A stretch of 64,000 nucleotides of DNA, taken from positions 1 to 64,000 of the forward strand of contig JANXYX010000021.1 in NCBI GenBank assembly GCA_025408425.1, in the 5' to 3' direction. The translations under genes and the position numbers were made by a program. The DNA is from Granulicella sp. Its GTDB lineage: Bacteria; Acidobacteriota; Terriglobia; Terriglobales; Acidobacteriaceae. Numbering within the stretch: the first letter of the stretch is position 1; the number at the start of each line of letters is the position of its first letter. The notes under the pieces are model-generated. The model did not search any database. It saw only the letters and a program-made list of their open reading frames with translations, and was not told where the DNA came from. This document shows positions 13,469-63,752 of the stretch, piece after piece.

Positions 13469-15718
13469 ATGGTGACAGGAAACCAGATCGACGCGGGGAG
13501 ATCGGGATTGCTGCGCTGGCGGCCCCCGACGGGTCTGGCAGGTGCGGCCTTCTGGTTGGGGGTTTGGTTTTGCCTGCTTTGGCTGCTGCGGATGATTCCG
13601 GGCGGGGTAGGGAGTTTTAGCGGTTTTTTACAGATACTGGCAGGGATAGCGCTGGTTGTGGTGACGATTCCTCTGCTGTGGCAACTGGTTCGGCGGCACA
13701 TGCTGTGGAGTCTTCGTAACAAGCTGGTTTTGACGTATTTGCTGATCGGTGGGGCGCCAGTGGTGCTCTTTGTGACGCTGGTGACGGTATCGGCTTACAT
13801 TGCGGCGGGGCAGTTTGCGATTCATCTGGCGGATACACGTCTGCAAGCAGAGTTGAACCAGATGATTGGAGAGAATGGACATCGAGGTTCAACTACAGCC
13901 AGGCTGATAGAGGAAAAAGTTCGCATAGAGCCGCCTCCCGCGGCTGATATTGAAGCGGCGCGGACAGCAGCGGCTGATGTTCCGCGCCTGCGGCTGCATC
14001 GCTCGACGGTGGCGTTCATGGACGGTGTGCCTTACGATCTTGGGCCGATGACGAGCAATACTGGAAAGACACCATTTGGCCTGCCGCCGTGGGCTACCCA
14101 ACTGGGCAGGAACGATTTTCAAGGTTTAGTGCTGGACAACGATGAACTCTACCTTGTGGCAGTCCACCAGCAGCGGCTAAGGGATGGGCGCATGTTCAGC
14201 CTGATGACGAGTCTGCCTGTAGATGCAGAGGTGATGGATATGATCGCCGATGGGTTGGGACGGGCTGGCTTGCTGCCCCAGAGAGCAGGAAAGAACGCAG
14301 AGGCGGGACAAGGTGTGAGTTCAAGTACGGCACTGCAAGAAGGCGCTGTCCCGGCAGCCTCCAGTGCAACCGCCACATCGCGCAATGCAACCCAAAGAAG
14401 GTCAAGCGCACGTGGGGCCAGGAAAGGCTTTATCTATGGCGGAAGCGAGCCAGCGGGTGTGAATATTGCTGACATCCGTGTGGCTTTTATATCGACAATC
14501 ACGATAACGGACTGGGATACGGGTGAGCCCGATAACATTTTAATTGAGGTTGATTCGCGGCCATCACTGCTGTACCGGCAGCTATTTGGCGGGTCGCTGG
14601 GTGGAATCGTAACCAACACGATCCTGATTGGGCTGGTACTGCTTTGTGTGGTGTGTGCGTTGCTTGAAGCGCTAGCACTGGTGATGGCGTTCCGTGTTAG
14701 CCGTACGATTACTGCTTCGGTTGCGGATTTGTATGAGGCGACGCAGCGGATTGATCGCGGGGAGTTCAACTATCGAATCGGAGTGAAGCGCGACGATCAA
14801 CTGGCGGAACTGAGCCGATCGTTCAACCGTATGACTGGATCGCTGCAGCGGTTGCTGGTGGAGCAGAAGGAGAAGGAGCGGCTTCAGAACGAGCTTTCGA
14901 TTGCGCAGGAGGTGCAGGCAAACCTATTCCCACGTCTGGCTTGCGATCTGCCGTCGCTACAGTTGCATGGAGTGTGCCGTCCGGCGCGGTCGGTCAGCGG
15001 GGACTACTATGATTTTCTGGTGTTTCACGAGGAAGCCCATGATGGGCAGCCAAGCCGACGCGAGACTGGTGTCGGCATTGCGCTTGGCGATATCAGTGGC
15101 AAGGGGATTTCAGCGGCACTGCTGATGGCTACTTTGCACTCGGCGGTTCGAGCGTACCGGTTTGCGAGTGAGGAATTGGTTTATAGCGAATCGAGCTTTG
15201 CAGGCCTGACGGCGAGCCGTGAAGAGTTCGGAATGGATTGTGATGGGTTGTTTGAGTCGCCGGGCCGTATTCTTTCGCTGCTGAATCGGCACCTGTATCG
15301 CAGTACGCAGCCGGAGAAGTACGCCACGTTGTTTCTCGGTCACTACAACGCGAAGTCTTCCGTACTGACTTATTCGAATGCGGGGCAGCTGCCTCCACTG
15401 GTGCTGGGACGGGATGGCAGCATCCGCAGGCTAGACCGTGGGGGGACAGTAGTGGGTTTGATGGACGGGATGCACTACGAGGAGGATCGGGTTCAGATGC
15501 GGTCTGGAGACATTCTGGTGGCTTACTCCGATGGTGTGACGGAGCCGGAGAATGACTTTGGTGAGTTTGGTGAGGAGCGACTAATGGAGGTGGTGCGTCG
15601 GTATCGCGACCAGCCTCTGCATGTGATTTCCGCCCAGGTGATGCTGGCGTTGGACACATGGATCGGTGCCGAGGAACAGCCGGACGACATTACGCTGGTG
15701 TTGGCGCGACAGGTTTAG
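13469..15718 (+). CDS. membrane PP2C/SpoIIE-type serine phosphatase with HAMP domain
   Basis: A 749-residue protein. Two membrane segments lie near the N-terminus (about 25-45 and 55-75), a third near 90-110, and another at about 385-410. Between the last two is a roughly 270-residue putative extracytoplasmic sensor region. A HAMP domain follows (RVSRTITASVADLYEATQRI), then a short coiled coil (QKEKERLQNELSIAQEVQ), then the RsbU/SpoIIE phosphatase domain. Metal-binding aspartates are in GDISGKG, YSDGVTEPEN and QPDDITLV. Such proteins dephosphorylate anti-anti-sigma factors in partner-switching stress pathways. No anti-sigma or STAS gene is present nearby, so the target is unknown. The start ATG directly abuts the YihY stop, and GAAGG precedes it. 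Confidence 0.92.
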   Translation: MVTGNQIDAGRSGLLRWRPPTGLAGAAFWLGVWFCLLWLLRMIPGGVGSFSGFLQILAGIALVVVTIPLLWQLVRRHMLWSLRNKLVLTYLLIGGAPVVLFVTLVTVSAYIAAGQFAIHLADTRLQAELNQMIGENGHRGSTTARLIEEKVRIEPPPAADIEAARTAAADVPRLRLHRSTVAFMDGVPYDLGPMTSNTGKTPFGLPPWATQLGRNDFQGLVLDNDELYLVAVHQQRLRDGRMFSLMTSLPVDAEVMDMIADGLGRAGLLPQRAGKNAEAGQGVSSSTALQEGAVPAASSATATSRNATQRRSSARGARKGFIYGGSEPAGVNIADIRVAFISTITITDWDTGEPDNILIEVDSRPSLLYRQLFGGSLGGIVTNTILIGLVLLCVVCALLEALALVMAFRVSRTITASVADLYEATQRIDRGEFNYRIGVKRDDQLAELSRSFNRMTGSLQRLLVEQKEKERLQNELSIAQEVQANLFPRLACDLPSLQLHGVCRPARSVSGDYYDFLVFHEEAHDGQPSRRETGVGIALGDISGKGISAALLMATLHSAVRAYRFASEELVYSESSFAGLTASREEFGMDCDGLFESPGRILSLLNRHLYRSTQPEKYATLFLGHYNAKSSVLTYSNAGQLPPLVLGRDGSIRRLDRGGTVVGLMDGMHYEEDRVQMRSGDILVAYSDGVTEPENDFGEFGEERLMEVVRRYRDQPLHVISAQVMLALDTWIGAEEQPDDITLVLARQV

Positions 15719-15733
15719 GACTAGTGGTGGAGT

Positions 15734-16999
15734 CTAAGGCTTTACGTTGAGTGCCTTGACGACGATTGCGTTAGGAGAGCTGCCCGCGGGCAGAATCGTA
15801 AAGAGAGTCGCGCCGGGGTTGCTTTGGGTGCGGATGACAGCGACATCGCCGGAATGAGAGTCTGCGACGAGGAGAAGGTGCTCGTCAGCGGAGAATGCCA
15901 GGGCGTCGGGAGCAGAGCCGGTATGGATACTGGTGATCAGCCTGCCGTCGTCGATGCTCCAGAGGCTGATAGAGTCGGCGCCGAAGTTAGAGATGTAGAG
16001 GGAGCTGTTGTCGCTGGCGACGATGGCTCGAACGGGCTTGTTGCCGATGGTATAAGTGCCGCTGACTTCGTTGGTCCAGGTGGAAATTTCAGAGATGCTG
16101 TCGGAACCGAAGTTGGAGGAAAAGACCTCCCCCGTGTCCGGCTTCATCGCGAGATGGACGGGATTGAGACCGACATCGAGGAAGGCAAGGAGATGGTCCG
16201 TGGTGAGCGACGAGTCCTGCTTGGCGGCCCAAGAGTCGGCAGCAGCGGACAGACTGATCGCCATGACCTGATGACCGGCTGAGCAGGCGATGAATGCCTT
16301 TGACGAGTCGCGGAGAATCACTGCGTCGGTTGCTCCGGGACAACCGGAGAAAGCGGAACGGAGGCGCAGTATCTGGGGTCCGGAGGCGTTAGGTTGGTAG
16401 GGCGCGACGCTGAAGATAGAGACGCTGCCGCTGCCGCGGTTGGTTACGACCAGAGAGCGCATGTCGGAGGAGATGATGGCGATCCCAGGCTGTTCTCCAG
16501 TACCGGCGACGGCTATTTCGCGGCGGCGGTCGAGATCAAGGACACTGACGGTGTTCGAGCCTGAGTTGGCTACATAGGCCCTATGGCCGGAAGGCTCCAC
16601 GCTGATGAAGTAGGGAAGGCGATGAACGGGGATGGTGGCGACGACACGATTGGATTCGGCGTCAATGACAGAAACCGAACCAGATTGGGTGTTGACGACG
16701 TAGACTTCATTGCGAACTGGATTGGTGGCAAGGCCAGTGGGATTGCCACCGACCTGGATGGTACGGTCCTGACGCAGATATACGAGGTCGAGGACACTAA
16801 CGGTGTTTGACCCGCCGTTGCTGACGTAGGCGTACTCGCGATAGCCGCTTGGAACATCAGGGAAGTTGTTGCGATGGCAGCCCGAGGTGAACGTGAGGGC
16901 GGCAGTGATCGCGAAAGCGCTGAAGCGAGATAAGTGGAATTGCGATCGAAGAAAGGTTGGCACTGCTGCGAGTCTATCGGTGAGATTGTAGTGCTGCAA
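15734..16999 (-). CDS. YVTN/YncE-type beta-propeller protein, probable lipoprotein
   Basis: 421 residues. An N-terminal hydrophobic stretch is followed by TSGC (about residue 41), a plausible lipoprotein cleavage site. The rest consists of about seven repeats of the YVTN type, for example YAYVSNGGSNTVSVLDL, VYVVNTQSGSVSVIDAESNRVV and AYVANSGSNTVSVLDLDRR. These fold into a beta-propeller. Such proteins are extracytoplasmic and usually of unknown function. It follows the ccm operon on the same strand, 38 bases after ccmD, and may be read through with it. A role in the periplasm near cytochrome maturation is only a guess from position. Confidence 0.85.
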   Translation of the reverse strand: MQHYNLTDRLAAVPTFLRSQFHLSRFSAFAITAALTFTSGCHRNNFPDVPSGYREYAYVSNGGSNTVSVLDLVYLRQDRTIQVGGNPTGLATNPVRNEVYVVNTQSGSVSVIDAESNRVVATIPVHRLPYFISVEPSGHRAYVANSGSNTVSVLDLDRRREIAVAGTGEQPGIAIISSDMRSLVVTNRGSGSVSIFSVAPYQPNASGPQILRLRSAFSGCPGATDAVILRDSSKAFIACSAGHQVMAISLSAAADSWAAKQDSSLTTDHLLAFLDVGLNPVHLAMKPDTGEVFSSNFGSDSISEISTWTNEVSGTYTIGNKPVRAIVASDNSSLYISNFGADSISLWSIDDGRLITSIHTGSAPDALAFSADEHLLLVADSHSGDVAVIRTQSNPGATLFTILPAGSSPNAIVVKALNVKP

Positions 17000-50314: not shown

Positions 50315-50767
50315 TTATGGGCTTTGTAGGAGGTGTGTGGGGATTGAATCGATTTGATTGGCGAATTGGGTGTGGACGTGCGGGTAGTCTTCGTAGTGCT
50401 TTCGGGAGGGGTTATTGGCTATGTAGATGAGTTGGGACTGAAAGTCGTCGGCGTCGCGGATGCGGTGTTCGTGGTGGCCGGAGTGCCAGACGTCTCCTGG
50501 GGATTGCTGGCGGACTGCGAAGGAGTAGCCGCCCTTGATGTACTGGATGCACTTTGCGGTGGATTGATCGGTTGCAGGCGTGATGAGGACGTGGGTGTGA
50601 TCGGGCATGACGACGAAGCCGTGAAGTTGGAAGCGGCCCTGATCGCGATGGCGGAGGAGTGTTGCGATGAAGAGTTCGGCGTTGGCTGTACGCTGGAAGT
50701 GGCGATGCTGCTGGAAGGTTGAGATGGTGATGGCGTAGGTGCTCTGCTTTTGGCGGATGGTGGCCAT
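50315..50767 (-). CDS. REP-associated tyrosine transposase (RAYT)
   Basis: 150 residues. The HUH-type Y1 transposase core is present: VVMPDHTHVLI (the HxH metal site) and the IKGGYSFAVRQ helix with the nucleophile tyrosine, followed by DVWHSGHHEHRIRDADD. Such single-copy proteins act on REP palindromes rather than moving themselves. A REP-like palindrome begins 8 bases upstream of its ATG. Elements of the same family appear in the sdh operon. Confidence 0.9.
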   Translation of the reverse strand: MATIRQKQSTYAITISTFQQHRHFQRTANAELFIATLLRHRDQGRFQLHGFVVMPDHTHVLITPATDQSTAKCIQYIKGGYSFAVRQQSPGDVWHSGHHEHRIRDADDFQSQLIYIANNPSRKHYEDYPHVHTQFANQIDSIPTHLLQSP

Positions 50768-50774
50768 GAAAAGA

Positions 50775-50844
50775 GAGCATACCCCAGGGGCTAAAGCCCG
50801 GTTTTGTGGATCGGGAAAGAGAGGGCCAAGCCTGAAGGCTTGGC
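50775..50844. repeat. REP-like elements flanking the RAYT gene
   Basis: Two palindromes. The first is GAGCATACCCCAGGGG then CTAAAGCCC (50775-50799), containing GGGCT-AA-AGCCC. The second is GCCAAGCC-TGAA-GGCTTGGC (50825-50844). The first differs by only two bases over 25 from 62927-62951 in the sdh operon. Confidence 0.75.
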
Positions 50845-50887
50845 GTACCTAGATGCAAGAACTAATACGGGGTGTCCTGCTCTTTTT

Positions 50888-56663: not shown

Positions 56664-57185
56664 TTAAGCGATGCGTTCGATGGTTACAGACTCCAGGACT
56701 ACTGGGGTTTTGGGGCGATCCATGCCGTCGCGGCTGACTTTGGAGATTTTTTCTGCGATGTCGTAGCCTTCGACTACTTCACCGAAGATGGTGTGTTTGC
56801 CGGTGAGCCAGCTGGTGTCGGCGGTGGTGATGAAGAACTGGGAGCCATTGGTGTTGGGGCCGGAGTTGGCCATGGCGAGCTTGCCGGGCTGCTGGAAGCC
56901 GTGTTTGGATCCCTTGGTCTCGTCGGCGAACTTGTAGCCTGGGCCGCCCATGCCGGTTCCTTCGGGGTCTCCGCCCTGGATCATGAAGTTGGGGATGACG
57001 CGGTGGAAGATGGATCCGTCGTAGAGCTTGGGGCCTTTCTTGGAGCGGCTGTTCCAGTCCTTGGTGCCTTCTGCGAGGCCGATGAAGTTGGCGACGGTCT
57101 CTGGGGCGTCCTTTTCGAAGAGTTCGCAGACGATGGTTCCTTCGGTGGTCTTAAAGGTGGCGTAGGTGCATGGCTTGGTTGGCAT
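56664..57185 (-). CDS. cytoplasmic cyclophilin-type peptidyl-prolyl isomerase
   Basis: 173 residues. The cyclophilin fold is complete: IFHRVIPNFMIQGGDPEGTG, LAMANSGPNTNGSQFFITT, LTGKHTIFGEVVEGYDIA. No signal peptide, so cytoplasmic. It speeds cis-trans proline isomerisation. AGGAG lies 9 bases before the ATG. It sits 78 bases after a second, exported cyclophilin gene read in the same direction. Confidence 0.93.
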   Translation of the reverse strand: MPTKPCTYATFKTTEGTIVCELFEKDAPETVANFIGLAEGTKDWNSRSKKGPKLYDGSIFHRVIPNFMIQGGDPEGTGMGGPGYKFADETKGSKHGFQQPGKLAMANSGPNTNGSQFFITTADTSWLTGKHTIFGEVVEGYDIAEKISKVSRDGMDRPKTPVVLESVTIERIA

Positions 57186-57263
57186 TTCGGTGTTCTCCTA
57201 ACAGGTTGTGGTGCTGGGTTGAAAGAGAAAGAGTCTGCGCGGATGTCGCGAAGATCAGGAAGA

Positions 57264-58004
57264 TTATTTTGGCGCTGGCACCGGTGGTGGCATGTTTGCG
57301 GTCGGTACTGAAGCGGGCGCGGGGGCCGGGGCCGGAGGCAGAGGCGGCATGGGTTGTCCGTCGCGCACGATGGTGATGTGATTGATGACGACGGGGGTGG
57401 TGGGCTTGTCCGAACCGTTGCGATCGACGCGGGCGATGGAGGAGACAAGCTGTACTGACTGTTCGTCGCACTGGCCGAAGATGGTGTGCTTGCCGTTGAG
57501 TTCGGGGACTGGCTGCTCTGTGATGAAGAATTGGGAGCCGTTGGTGCGGGGGCCTGAGTTGGCCATGGCAAGGCGGCCGGGGACGTCGAAGGTGAGGTCA
57601 GAAGTGATCTCGTCGTCGAAGTAGTAGCCGGGGTCGCCCATGCCGGTTCCGATGGGGTCGCCACCCTGGATCATGAAGCCGGGGATAACGCGGTGGAAGG
57701 TGGTGCCGTCGTAGAGGGACTTGTGATGAACCTTCTTGAGGGTGGTGGGGTCAGTCCAGTCCTTGGAGCCGTCGGCGAGGCCGATGAAGTTGGCGACGGT
57801 GATGGGAGCCTGCTGGTCGTAGAACTTGCAGGTGAGGCGGCCCATGGTGGTGTCGATGACGGCGGTGGGGCCGGTGGGGACTACAGGAGCTTTTGCTGCC
57901 TGAGCAGCAGCGCCGGGTGCATCCGGAAGGGCATCCTGGCTCGTACTCTGAGCAAAGGCAGATCCGGTAAGCGCAAGGCAAAGAGCGATGGTCTTGGCAA
58001 TCAT
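57264..58004 (-). CDS. exported cyclophilin-type peptidyl-prolyl isomerase
   Basis: 246 residues from the ATG at 58004. A signal peptide (IAKTIALCLALTGSAFAQS) starts there; the frame extends 38 codons upstream without family-like sequence. The cyclophilin core has FHRVIPGFMIQGGDPIGTG, LAMANSGPRTNGSQFFITE and LNGKHTIFGQ. It has a Pro/Ala-rich tail. Should fold proteins in the periplasm. Paired with the cytoplasmic cyclophilin gene downstream, a likely duplication with different localisation. Confidence 0.92.
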   Translation of the reverse strand: MIAKTIALCLALTGSAFAQSTSQDALPDAPGAAAQAAKAPVVPTGPTAVIDTTMGRLTCKFYDQQAPITVANFIGLADGSKDWTDPTTLKKVHHKSLYDGTTFHRVIPGFMIQGGDPIGTGMGDPGYYFDDEITSDLTFDVPGRLAMANSGPRTNGSQFFITEQPVPELNGKHTIFGQCDEQSVQLVSSIARVDRNGSDKPTTPVVINHITIVRDGQPMPPLPPAPAPAPASVPTANMPPPVPAPK

Positions 58005-58142
58005 TATGTTCAAGGCTAACTCATGCGGCTGTGCGTCGGCAAAGCGATGGGTGCAGGCAAACACCGCTGAGGAAGCGTGATGGCGAGGGCGAGCGATTAA
58101 TGGCTCGCCCTTTGGCATGAAGAAGCTGGAAGTCTGGGCAGC

Positions 58143-59837: not shown

Positions 59838-60599
59838 TTAGCGGGTGAAGAAGTCTTTGACTTGCTGGATAAAGACGTCGCGACCCATGTCTGAGATGGC
59901 TTCGGTGAGGGGGAGTTGTTTGGGGCAGGCCTGGACGCAGTTCTGGGCGAAGCCGCACTCCTGGATGCCGCCGTCTCCGGCGAGGGCGCGGAGTCGTTCT
60001 TCCTTGAGGACTGAACCGCTGGGGTCCATGTTGAAGAGCTTGGTCTGAGCGATGGTGGCAGCTCCGACGAAGCCGGTGGCGTCGTTGAACTGGGGGCAGA
60101 CCTCCATGCAGATGGTGCAGGAGATGCAGTTGGAGAGCGGGTAGCGCTGCTCCTGAATCTGGGGGTGCTGCCGAGGACCAGCGCCTAGATCGTATGAGCC
60201 GTCGATGGGGACCCAGGCTTTGACCTTCTTGAGGTTCTCGAAGAGGACGGAGCGGTCTACAGCGAGGTCGCGGACGACGGGGAATTTCGAGAGGGGGGCG
60301 AGAGTGATGGTCTGGTCTTTGTTCGGACCGGTGAGCTTGTCAACGAGGGCGGAGCAGGCCATGGTGGCCTTGCCGTTGATGAGCATGGCGCAGGAGCCGC
60401 AGATCTCTTCGAGGCAGTTGGAGTCGTAGGTTACGGGCGTGGTGGGCTTGCCGGTGACGTCTACGGGGTTGAGCGCGATTTCGCCAAGGAGCGAGGTGAT
60501 GTTCATGCCCGGGCGATAGGGGATCTCGAACTTCTCGGTGGTGGCTGGGGCGTCCGGGGTGGACTGGCGCTTGATCTCGACTTTGATGGTGCTTGGCAT
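59838..60599 (-). CDS. sdhB: succinate dehydrogenase iron-sulfur subunit
   Basis: 253 residues from the ATG at 60599; an in-frame start 17 codons upstream lies in low-quality sequence. The N-terminal 2Fe-2S domain has CLEEICGSC and a later Cys (ATMAC). The C-terminal domain has CISCTICMEVCP and CGFAQNCVQACP for the 4Fe-4S and 3Fe-4S clusters. It passes electrons from the flavoprotein to the membrane subunit. Last gene of the sdh operon, 170 bases after sdhA with REP-like repeats in the gap. Confidence 0.95.
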   Translation of the reverse strand: MPSTIKVEIKRQSTPDAPATTEKFEIPYRPGMNITSLLGEIALNPVDVTGKPTTPVTYDSNCLEEICGSCAMLINGKATMACSALVDKLTGPNKDQTITLAPLSKFPVVRDLAVDRSVLFENLKKVKAWVPIDGSYDLGAGPRQHPQIQEQRYPLSNCISCTICMEVCPQFNDATGFVGAATIAQTKLFNMDPSGSVLKEERLRALAGDGGIQECGFAQNCVQACPKQLPLTEAISDMGRDVFIQQVKDFFTR

Positions 60600-60671
60600 T
60601 GTTGTTGCCCTCTTTGGTTTTGCGCCTCGCTTTCGCTTGGCGCAAAACAAAATTATTGGGAGTTCTTTATT

Positions 60672-60706
60672 GTCCGGGCTAAAGCCCGGACCTATCTCAG
60701 AAGCAA
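60672..60706. repeat. REP-like element (GTCCGGGCTAAAGCCC family) between sdhA and sdhB
   Basis: GTCCGGGCT-AA-AGCCCGGAC (60672-60691) followed by CTATCTCAGAAGCAA. The 35-base unit differs by one base from 62973-63007 inside sdhC. The palindrome core GGGCTAAAGCCC is shared with the RAYT-adjacent element. Confidence 0.8.
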
Positions 60707-60726
60707 GTGCAAAAGCAACGACAGAA

Positions 60727-60769: not shown

Positions 60770-62542
60770 TTACGCGGTAGCGGTGTAGCTGCGTGGCCGC
60801 GGTTTGATGTGGCTGATGTCGACTTCTTCAAACTCGAAGGCGGGGGCGTTGTCTTTGAAGCTGGCCTTGGTGGTTTTGAGGAACTTCTCGTCGTTGCGCT
60901 CGGGGAAGTCGGGTTTGTAGTGGGCTCCGCGGGACTCGTCGCGGAGGCGTGCGCCCTGGACGATGACACGGCCGAGTTCGAGCATGTTTTTGAGCTGGCG
61001 GGTGAAGGCGAAGCTGGTGTTGGCCCACTGGCTCTTGTCGGAGAGGTTGATGTTTTTGTAGCGGTCGAGAAGTTCGACGATCTTGGCGTCGGCTTCGTCG
61101 AGGCCGGCGTTGTAGCGGATGATGGTGGCGTGCTTGGTCATGGTGTCGCCGAGTTCGCGCCAGATCTTGAAGGGGTTTTCCGTACCGGTGGAGGAGAGAA
61201 GCTGGTTGTTGAGTTCCTTCTGGCGCTGAAGCTCGGCTGCGTGGCCTCCGTCGCCTTGCTGGGCGGGCAGAGCCTTGGCGTAGGCGAGGGCTTGCGGGCC
61301 GGCGACGAATCCGCCGTAGATGCAGGAGAGGAGGGAGTTGGCACCGAGGCGGTTGGCGCCGTGGATGGAGTAATCCGCTTCTCCTGCTGCATATACGCCG
61401 GGAATGTTCGTCTGCTGGTTGAAGTCTACCCAGAGGCCGCCCATGGTGTAGTGCATGCCGGGGAAGATCTTCATGGGGACCTTGCGGGGATCGTCGCCAA
61501 CGAACTTCTCGTAGATCTCGAGGATGCCTTCGAGCTTGTGGATGCGCTCAGGGGGCAGATGGGTGAGGTCGAGGTAGACCATGGGCTGGCCGTCGATGCC
61601 CATACCGTGCTCGTAGACGACCTTGAAGATGGCGCGGGTGGCTACGTCGCGGGGGACGAGATTACCGTACTTGGGGTACCACTCCTCGAGGAAGTACCAG
61701 CGGTCGGACTCGGGGATGGAATTGGCTACGCGCTTGTCGTTCTTGTCGCGGGGGACCCAGACGCGGCCACCTTCGCCGCGAGCGGACTCGGACATGAGGC
61801 GGAGCTTGTCTTCGCCGGGGATGGCGGTGGGGTGGACCTGGATGAACTCGCCGTTGGCGTAGAAGGCGCCCTGCTGGTAGAGAGCGGACTGGGCGGAGCC
61901 GGTGCAGACGACGGAGTTAGTGGACTTGCCGAAGATGGCTCCGTTGCCTCCGGTGCAGACGATGATTGCGTCGGCGGGGAAGGTTCGGGTCTCCATGGTG
62001 CGGAGGTCCATGGCTACGATGCCGCGGCAGGCGCCTTTGGAGTCGAGGACTGCGGAGAGGAACTCCCAGCCTTCGTACTTGGTTACTTTGCCTTCGGACT
62101 CGTGGCGGCGGACCTGCTCGTCGAGGGCGTAGAGGAGTTGCTGGCCGGTGGTGGCTCCGGCGAAGGCGGTGCGCTGGTAGAGGGTGCCACCGAAGCGGCG
62201 GAAGTCGAGCAGGCCTTCCGGCGTGCGGTTGAAGGGGACGCCCATGCGGTCGAGCAGGTCGATGATGGCGGGGCCCTGGGCAGTCATGGCCTTGACGGGG
62301 GTCTGGTTGGCGAGGAAGTCGCCGCCGTAGATGGTGTCGTCGAAGTGCTTGAGGACGCTGTCGCCTTCGCCCTTGAGGTCTTTGGCGGCGTTAATGCCGC
62401 CCTGGGCGCAGACGGAGTGCGAGCGCTTGACGGGGACGATGGAGAAGAGGTCGACGGTGCCGCCGGCTTCGGCGATCTTGATGACGGCGGAGAGACCGGC
62501 GAGGCCTCCTCCTACGACGATGATTCTGGGTGATGCTGCCAT
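60770..62542 (-). CDS. sdhA: succinate dehydrogenase flavoprotein subunit
   Basis: 590 residues. It oxidises succinate to fumarate. FAD-binding IIVVGGGLAGLSAVIKIAEAG, the covalent-flavin histidine in SHSVCAQGG, active-site HPTAIPGEDKL, and ANRLGANSLLSCIYGG. The subunit is of the single-gene type used with the diheme SdhC found here. The RRFGGTLYQRTAF stretch lies near residue 115. A frameshifted gene and sdhC precede it. Confidence 0.96.
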   Translation of the reverse strand: MAASPRIIVVGGGLAGLSAVIKIAEAGGTVDLFSIVPVKRSHSVCAQGGINAAKDLKGEGDSVLKHFDDTIYGGDFLANQTPVKAMTAQGPAIIDLLDRMGVPFNRTPEGLLDFRRFGGTLYQRTAFAGATTGQQLLYALDEQVRRHESEGKVTKYEGWEFLSAVLDSKGACRGIVAMDLRTMETRTFPADAIIVCTGGNGAIFGKSTNSVVCTGSAQSALYQQGAFYANGEFIQVHPTAIPGEDKLRLMSESARGEGGRVWVPRDKNDKRVANSIPESDRWYFLEEWYPKYGNLVPRDVATRAIFKVVYEHGMGIDGQPMVYLDLTHLPPERIHKLEGILEIYEKFVGDDPRKVPMKIFPGMHYTMGGLWVDFNQQTNIPGVYAAGEADYSIHGANRLGANSLLSCIYGGFVAGPQALAYAKALPAQQGDGGHAAELQRQKELNNQLLSSTGTENPFKIWRELGDTMTKHATIIRYNAGLDEADAKIVELLDRYKNINLSDKSQWANTSFAFTRQLKNMLELGRVIVQGARLRDESRGAHYKPDFPERNDEKFLKTTKASFKDNAPAFEFEEVDISHIKPRPRSYTATA

Positions 62543-62562: not shown

Positions 62563-62932
62563 TTAACTAAATGCACCGACTAATTGAAGAGCGCCGATCA
62601 ACATGACGAAAACGCCGACAACGGTTAAGATCTGTCCAATTCTGAGCATCTTGTAGAAAGGCCCGTCCGGCTGTGTCTCCCGATACTTCTTGACTGCCGC
62701 TGCTCGTGTGGCGCTTGCTCCGGGGAGAAGTCGCGTCGCCGGTTGAGAACATCTCATGTTTGGCACTGACATCTTCCTCCGCGGCATCCATCATCTTCCA
62801 GATGCCCATATTGCCTACTACGATCCCGCCAAATATCGCTACCATCCCCGCTGCGACTACCGGATGCAACAGGAATTTCCAAAAGCTTTCAGTCTGTTCG
62901 TTGCCTGCGGCTAGAGAGAGGAAATGGAGCAT
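62563..62932 (-). pseudogene. frameshifted small membrane protein gene between sdhC and sdhA
   Basis: From an ATG at 62932 the first about 65 codons look like a real protein with one membrane helix (VVAAGMVAIFGGIVVGNMGIW) and MDAAEEDVSAKHEMFS. Then the frame turns into low-quality sequence. In the frame one base over, a good protein end appears (AAAVKKYRETQPDGPFYKMLRIGQILTVVGVFVMLIGALQLVGAFS, second helix) and stops at 62563. I infer a single about 120-residue two-helix protein broken by a one-base indel around 62740-62700. A sequencing error or two overlapping genes are alternatives. The start codon lies in a REP-like element. Confidence 0.65.
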
Positions 62933-63007
62933 ATCTCAGGGGCTAAAGCCCAATTCTTTCTCTTCCTGTAATGTCCGGGCTAAAGCCCGGACCTATCTCA
63001 GAGGCAA
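62927..63007. repeat. pair of REP-like elements at the sdhC 3' end
   Basis: Left element: GAGCATATCTCAGGGG-CTAAAGCCC (62927-62951). Right element: GTCCGGGCTAAAGCCCGGAC (62973-62992) followed by CTATCTCAGAGGCAA (to 63007). The left one matches the RAYT-flanking element at 50775-50799 with two differences in 25; the right one matches 60672-60706 with one. Together they form a BIME-like pair that covers the end of sdhC and the start of the next gene. Confidence 0.8.
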
Positions 63008-63752
63008 TAACAACTGCGCCTGGAGTGAGGCTGGAAGTCTGCGCGGGCAGAACGTCGGCTGGGGCGTTGGGGTACTTATAGACGACGGCGTAGATGCTGG
63101 CGAGGCCCATGAGGCATAGGGCGATTCCGAAGAGGGCGCAGACGTAGCCGAAGCGTTTGCGGGCGCGGTCGCCGGGGGTGATGCCCCACTTGGCGGCGAA
63201 GAGCCAGATGCCGTAGGAGAAGTGCCAGGTGGTGGCGATCATGGCGATGACGTAGATGGCGAGCATCCAGGGGTTGGCTAGCTCGTGCTGGACTTTGGCG
63301 AATGCGGCGCCGGGGTGCTCTGGAAGCTGAACGCCGGCAAAGCGTTGCCGCCAGACGTGCTGGATGATGTAGACGAAGGCAATGAGGCCAGTGATGCGCT
63401 GGGAGAGGTACATCCAGTTGCCGGCCCAGGGGTAGACGTTGACGTTGGAGCGGCCGCGGAAGGCGATGAAGACGCCGTAGAGTGCGTGGAAGGCGAGGGG
63501 GATGAAGATGAAGGCCCACTCCAGCACGCGAACGAGGGGGAGGGAGTTGAGGAAGAGGACTTGTTTCGCGTAGGCGAGGGGGCCGTTCCAGGTTTCGAAG
63601 TTGGAGACGATGTGCTCGATGAGGAATGCGCCGATGGGGACGATACCTGAGAGCGAATGGAGCTTGTGCCAGAGGAAGGAGTTGCCCTGACCGGCGCGCA
63701 GAGGTTGAACTCCGCGGAGGGTAGGGGGGGCAGGCGTTGCGGTTGTTGCCAT
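62943..63752 (-). CDS. sdhC: succinate dehydrogenase cytochrome b subunit (b558 type)
   Basis: 269 residues with five membrane helices and several histidines placed to hold haem (HKLHS, LIEHIV, AFHALYG, IIQHVW, TWHFSYG), as in B. subtilis-type diheme SdhC. It anchors SdhAB and passes electrons to quinone. AAGGAG precedes the ATG. The last about 21 residues (IASEIGPGFSPDITGRER...) are the translation of a REP-like element, and the TAG stop at 62945-62943 lies in its partner palindrome. The natural C-terminus has evidently been replaced. Confidence 0.93.
   Translation of the reverse strand: MATTATPAPPTLRGVQPLRAGQGNSFLWHKLHSLSGIVPIGAFLIEHIVSNFETWNGPLAYAKQVLFLNSLPLVRVLEWAFIFIPLAFHALYGVFIAFRGRSNVNVYPWAGNWMYLSQRITGLIAFVYIIQHVWRQRFAGVQLPEHPGAAFAKVQHELANPWMLAIYVIAMIATTWHFSYGIWLFAAKWGITPGDRARKRFGYVCALFGIALCLMGLASIYAVVYKYPNAPADVLPAQTSSLTPGAVVIASEIGPGFSPDITGRERIGL

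Follow-up and report, generated by a model that had tools for sequence, protein, structure and literature searches.

REPs with GTAG termini are short palindromic repeats, single or dimeric, that are linked to REP-associated tyrosine transposases (RAYTs); their termini often supply TAG stop codons, and REPs lying within ORFs, some of them at the coding end, have been described (PMC3733652). The Rickettsia palindromic elements (RPE) cited in that article are palindromic repeats translated in-frame in genes that probably work. In REPIN/RAYT systems the REP doublet is the unit, located near RAYT genes and carrying compensatory changes (PMC3116915, PMC2817692). REPIN doublets are inverted repeats (PMC3116915), RAYT genes are flanked by REPs in inverted orientation, and more than 100 copies per genome are usual (PMC2817692). 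Finally, class 3 Y1 transposases of Acidobacteria and other bacteria are accompanied by REP-like structures, with ∼600 copies in Solibacter usitatus (PMC6006769).

Here we analyzed a stretch of 64,000 nt of DNA (the window) from contig C21 of a soil acidobacterium of the Edaphobacter/Granulicella clade with a genome of 4.23 Mb, in which a dimeric REP-like element encodes the end of the succinate dehydrogenase gene sdhC. Compared with the portions of the cited articles drawn on here, the element resembles the GTAG-tagged REPs in its palindromic single or dimeric build and its link to a RAYT, but the sdhC TAG lies in the core of a palindrome and not in a terminal tag, and the tetranucleotide beside the second palindrome is ATAG in 14 of 18 aligned copies, GTAG in two and another sequence in the remaining two. 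As in RPE, a palindromic repeat is translated in-frame in a likely working gene; unlike RPE, it also ends that gene. The doublet behaves as a unit near RAYT genes and shows compensatory changes as REPINs do, but its two palindromes have the same orientation, and a transposase gene on contig C39 is flanked by dimers in the same, not inverted, orientation. The 43 genomic matches, possibly a lower bound, are fewer than the more than 100 usual for REPs. Like the class 3 system, this one involves many REP-like structures in an acidobacterium, but class 3 structures carry a CnGA foot and their transposases other motifs; judged by eye, the window RAYT (...YIANNP and DHTH) is closer to the class 2 motifs of PMC6006769. 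Stop-supplying and in-frame translated REPs are already in print (PMC3733652), and the sdhC case adds to that kind. The passages of PMC3733652 considered here name no Acidobacteria sdhC case, and we found no report of it among the papers listed, mainly from open-access journals, on REP/RAYT in Acidobacteria or Edaphobacter or on stop-supplying and coding REPs. The locus offers a clean case, placed via relatives, of a mobile-type repeat forming the end of a core respiratory protein, a single repeat providing its final residues, its stop and also the next possible start.

The sdhC stop codon and the next possible start lie within one REP-like dimer

The features of the window on which the analysis rests are the following:
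62943-63752, minus strand: sdhC, b558-type succinate dehydrogenase cytochrome b subunit, 269 aa
62943-62945, minus strand: sdhC stop TAG, read from the sequence, inside palindrome P1, in GGGCTTTAGCCC
62930-62932, minus strand: ATG, first possible start of the next ORF, in the conserved outermost part of the element (plus-strand GCATA)
62926-63007, plus strand: dimeric REP-like element, from the 18-copy alignment, in the order P1, spacer, P2
62939-62951, plus strand: palindrome P1, GGGGCTAAAGCCC, holding the sdhC stop on the opposite strand
62973-62992, plus strand: palindrome P2, GTCCGGGCTAAAGCCCGGAC, translated in sdhC as GPGFSPD
62567-62932, minus strand: small ORF between sdhC and sdhA, whose N-terminal part (62723-62932) is similar to a two-TM protein found in a relative, the frame changing thereafter
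62566-62718, minus strand: C-terminal half of the small protein in another frame (...VKKYRETQPDGPFYKMLRIGQILTVVGVFVMLIGALQLVGAFS), from comparison with a relative
60770-62542, minus strand: sdhA, flavoprotein subunit, 590 aa (NF006392, 993 bits, cut-off 855)
60632-60711, plus strand: second copy of the element, between sdhA and sdhB (model match, E 3.6e-7)
59838-60593, minus strand: sdhB, iron-sulfur subunit, 251 aa (NF006391, 365 bits, cut-off 244)
50767-50863, plus strand: third copy, a whole dimer whose P2 is variant, adjacent to the RAYT gene on its upstream side (model match, E 3.6e-15)
50315-50767, minus strand: RAYT, 150 aa (NF047646, 94.1 bits, cut-off 80; PF01797, 4.7e-08)

The sdhC product matched PF01127 (3.1e-09) and TIGR02046 (5.7e-25; 88.2 bits, under the 96-bit cut-off of that profile). 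Read from the minus strand, the gene enters the element through P2 and then reaches P1. Its final codons are GTT GTT ATT, followed by GCC TCT GAG ATA GGT CCG GGC TTT AGC CCG GAC ATT ACA GGA AGA GAA AGA ATT GGG CTT TAG. The original prediction derived the 21 terminal codons from REP-like elements. The element-coded tail was indeed read in the sequence, but it amounts to 20 codons and part of a 21st, ASEIGPGFSPDITGRERIGL, and instead of several elements we found one dimer, whose two palindromes share an orientation and lie 37 nt apart. The TAG within P1 and the ATG of the next ORF were both located as predicted, the latter inside the covariance-model match at 62919-63012; they are separated by 10 nt and both belong to the conserved element as delimited by the 18-copy alignment and the model. 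The next ORF has no start before this ATG because of an in-frame TGA at 62936-62938; translation might alternatively begin later, at the TTG of codon 22. In the sdhC copy, two frames are closed within at most 17 nt of the edge of entry, whereas the frame that sdhC uses stays open as far as the P1 TAG. Having entered the element in its only long frame, SdhC thus ends in 20 element-coded residues. Across the 18 copies, all three frames in this direction of entry are closed in 10 and one is left open in eight.

Directly after P2, the sdhC-end element continues with CTATCTCAGAGGCAA. Comparison of the 18 copies showed that the P2 stem consists of eight pairs, six with changes on both sides and none broken, and that its covariation score was reached by none of 500 shuffles. 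The four modelled pairs of P1 did not vary in any of the 18 copies, so P1 is uninformative on compensatory change.

The dimer belongs to an interspersed family with adjoining RAYT genes

Genome-wide mapping of copies, proposed as a check along with the original prediction, revealed a repeat family. The sequence GGGCTNNAGCCC occurred four times in the window, as against 0.10 expected, a number reached by 0 of 100 shuffles, and GGGCTAAAGCCC was found 37 times in the genome, with none for the reversed control. Close pairs of exact cores, 36-38 nt apart, had the same orientation in eight of eight cases, three of them belonging to a second type. We refer to the sdhC-end type, of ∼80 nt, as family A and to the second as family B, names coined in this analysis; family B has other flanks (GGCCCGGGGC...TGCTCCCACC) and was seen among the weaker model matches. 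A regular expression applied over 33 loci returned 22 dimers, five of which were omitted as other or divergent types (L008, L011, two in L026 and L089:2373-2463). The 17 retained dimers, the sdhC-end copy being one of the 18 sequences finally aligned, were joined by the RAYT-side copy of the window (50767-50863) to build a covariance model, R1. At least 43 genome matches were obtained at E ≤ 0.01 (150 of 890 first-look candidates scored), including the 18 model-building copies, which match by construction. The sdhC copy scored 97.9 bits (E 2.8e-19) and ranked 12th of the 43, the best in the genome reaching 107.5 bits. In addition, a 17-nt piece of the element was found in 35 of 62 genus genomes, and its reversed control in none.

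Both neighbouring copies announced by the prediction were recovered in some form. The near-identical non-coding copy at 60672, between sdhA and sdhB, has a P2 half identical at 35 of 36 nt; its P1 half is unrecognisable by eye. Beside the RAYT gene, a partner palindrome had been placed at 50775. A copy is present there (50770), but it is the whole dimer, its second palindrome being a variant one.

The genome contains seven Y1_Tnp matches. In the window, the RAYT gene is adjoined by the dimer at 50767. On contig C39, a Y1 transposase gene (15418-15738) lies between two near-consensus dimers (15300-15393 and 15928-16021), both on the minus strand and hence in the same orientation; this gene is the best candidate for the mobiliser of the family. 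Two further Y1 transposase genes, at G000:C39:73289-75354, adjoin family-B dimers. The family therefore shows the REP traits of many interspersed copies, a compensatory P2 stem and a RAYT gene with adjoining copies.

The element-coded tail is found in a single SdhC lineage

SdhC was found in 57 of the 62 genus genomes, at a total of 58 loci, including one truncated by the start of its contig. Addition of the best 80 of 152 named loci found brought the number to 138; judged by the terminal 200 nt of sdhC, 106 of them were distinct, 57 belonging to the genus set and 49 to named, mostly acidobacterial records. The element palindrome lay within the sdhC coding tail in only one of these 106 distinct loci, that of the window, which indicates that the tail is lineage-specific. 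The prediction could have failed on a tail common to SdhC proteins of many genera, and no such tail emerged; rather, a REP supplies the stop codon of a gene and is absent there in its relatives. GFSPDI occurred in no other SdhC tail among the 106, the nearest string being an unrelated PGFSPASR in L225, and a looser palindrome test added two chance palindromes of different sequence (L068 and L246). Across the 58 genus loci, SdhC tails differ widely in length and sequence, the common one being PAQPAGI-LPAPTVPPPNSTNP-QPGEVR, with variants.

When the sdhC-sdhA spacer was considered along with the tail, the strict palindrome was present in 15 of the 106 loci, window included. R1 matched the sdhC junction at E ≤ 0.05 in 12 of the 58 genus loci, again counting the window, always on the strand opposite sdhC. 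These 12 matches do not equal 12 events, since several probably share descent and the weakest (L032, L047 and L054) are marginal. The matches in L047, L054 and L077 enter the sdhC coding end by 14, 4 and 7 nt and were rejected, as only the outer flank of the model is involved. Nor is the sdhC-sdhA spacer a special hotspot: in the 58 of the 80 named loci that have all three genes in order, palindromes were found in 6/58 of these spacers and in 6/58 of the sdhA-sdhB spacers.

Probable insertion of the element and competing explanations

We consider it about three-to-one probable (∼0.75) that a family-A element inserted into the 3′ end of sdhC, whose element-coded tail and stop, like the next possible start, are read directly from the sequence. 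According to this reading, a RAYT-associated dimeric element would have entered sdhC in the lineage of this species, presumably placed by a RAYT acting in trans, and may have persisted because SdhC can accommodate altered sequence C-terminal to its last transmembrane helix. The resulting tail would be neutral or nearly so, with translation of the small ORF downstream possibly affected as a side effect. In a tree of the SdhC core, the SdhC of the window grouped with those of genomes G052 and G042 (support 98/89, from a bootstrap that had not settled). Both sisters have their own sdhC stop followed by degraded REP dimers in the same orientation as the window's; the palindromes begin 19 and 55 nt after the stop in G042, and G052 has decayed versions at the same places. 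This arrangement is what would be expected if a REP dimer had already resided in the sdhC-sdhA spacer and the 3′ end or stop of sdhC had been lost by deletion or mutation, extending the gene into the dimer. In the same direction, 11 of the 57 other genus sdhC loci, sisters counted, carry a junction match to R1 at E ≤ 0.05 on the strand opposite sdhC, although these may share descent and are not necessarily 11 independent cases. However, the sister elements scored 30.4 (G042) and 20.6 bits (G052) as against 97.9 for the sdhC-end copy, which is favoured by its inclusion in the model, and the sister element flanks read AGGCACTTCG as against TGAGATATGCTC. With their lower scores and other flanks, the sister dimers look like another REP family and not like the ancestor of the sdhC-end copy, which is a family-A dimer complete to both of its own ends. 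This difference favours insertion in the window lineage, and we regard extension into a resident dimer as unlikely. Since G042 and G052 have dimers right behind sdhC, the site may nonetheless have held an element before read-through. Alignment of the junction with the sister and other loci revealed no clear insertion point, the tails being too diverged. As for the age of the event, the original prediction called it recent; the near-consensus copy and its absence in the sister species agree with this, but the word exceeds the evidence, as does the description of the operon as essential. Replacement of a native SdhC tail is likewise partly uncertain: neither sister has the common tail either, and SdhC tails are highly variable. 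That the tail would be ancestral SdhC sequence resembling a REP by chance has a negligible probability, given the palindrome in one of 106 distinct loci, the full-length match to a family with 43 matches and the fourfold occurrence in the window of a palindrome expected 0.10 times.

Distinct from the origin of the element is whether it has been kept as a functional part, the P2 and P1 hairpins tuning sdhC termination and re-initiation at the small ORF, or protecting the upstream message. In E. coli, a REP located shortly after a stop codon can cause ribosomes to stall. Here, the element contains both the stop and the next possible start, a P2 hairpin is predicted in the mRNA, and the small ORF of some relatives begins at -4, overlapping the sdhC stop, a layout whose place the element would have taken. 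On the other hand, the whole element folded not much better than its shuffles (z -1.30; 20/200 as good), the small ORF of the window is frame-shifted, and REP palindromes are equally common in the two spacers of the operon. Taken together, a retained function appears quite improbable. The wide variation of SdhC tails seen in sequence comparison fits a tolerant position.

Other translated copies in the genome

Gene context was assessed by applying a crude ORF picker, based on codon scores and trained on 21 ORFs of the window, to the ∼3 kb surrounding each copy; it found no gene near some copies. With this tool, sdhC was the sole clear case among the 43 matches of a gene stop deep inside the element, so that the family does not generally behave in this way. 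At C6:65761, an apparent second gene with GFSPDI at its end was discarded, as the likelier gene, judged by eye, stops upstream; the copy at C9:31070 and the family-B copy at C13:214092 were also discarded, the gene stopping at the element edge only.

Two further copies, C13:84474-84570 and 85974-86070, were located in-frame in an ORF of 1574 aa (L143:3679-8403, G000:C13). The protein comprises an SSF symporter domain, a beta-lactamase-type (serine) hydrolase domain and NamZ, and the elements occupy both linkers, where the dimers are translated as RYPKASALGLYNPALKSGLQPLGYA and RYPKASALGLSSPDQEKGLQPLGYA. A fusion made by REPs was rejected as an explanation of this protein because the three-domain architecture is generally present in the genus, with matches at E ≤ 1e-100 in 60 of 62 genomes, in many of them as a single open frame; the REPs thus do no more than occupy its linkers. 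Ten of the 29 relatives' versions fetched were given to R1, which matched in the linker before the hydrolase in L151 (G042) and L147 (G002), elsewhere in the protein in L159 (G028), and not at all in the other seven. The two in-frame copies suggest that the sdhC case is no single accident, and sdhC tail and linkers reflect the same tolerance of the element at presumably non-critical positions. The sdhC case shows a route from non-coding repeats to variable protein tails and linkers. A broader proposal would be that, in this genus, REP dimers with open frames continually provide material for protein tails and interdomain linkers, being taken up by genes again and again at non-critical positions, the sdhC element also resetting a stop/start junction; we hold this generalization to be doubtful. 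Other recurring peptides, e.g. VPHLRDGFIVAKVG and ILSGASR-C-AQSKDPDA, were observed in the linkers of this protein in the relatives L147, L148, L153, L158 and L164, and may be translations of further repeat families.

A small ORF between sdhC and sdhA

A small, fast-changing ORF is present between sdhC and sdhA in many genomes, often starting across the sdhC stop; examples are the window (62566-62932), L034, L036, L049, L056, L058, L060, L064, L068, L084 and L209. Spacers of 230-500 nt were found in 35 of 103 cases, and in 17 of these 35 a simple hydropathy window identified an ORF with exactly two hydrophobic segments. An HRxxxPxSxxR-like motif, recognised by eye, is common to many of these ORFs, and none of the four tried gave a significant Pfam family. 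The small ORF may encode a hitherto unrecognised accessory protein of complex II. In the relative L049 (G008) both halves of the small protein are in one 112-aa frame; the mid-gene frame change in the window is either a real lesion or an assembly error.

Elsewhere in the window, direct repeats of 62-117 nt with a spacing of ∼690-702 nt were observed at 56827-57871, consistent with two tandem paralogous genes. The ORF at 57264-58118 is, judging from its motif, what we take to be a cyclophilin-type peptidyl-prolyl isomerase.
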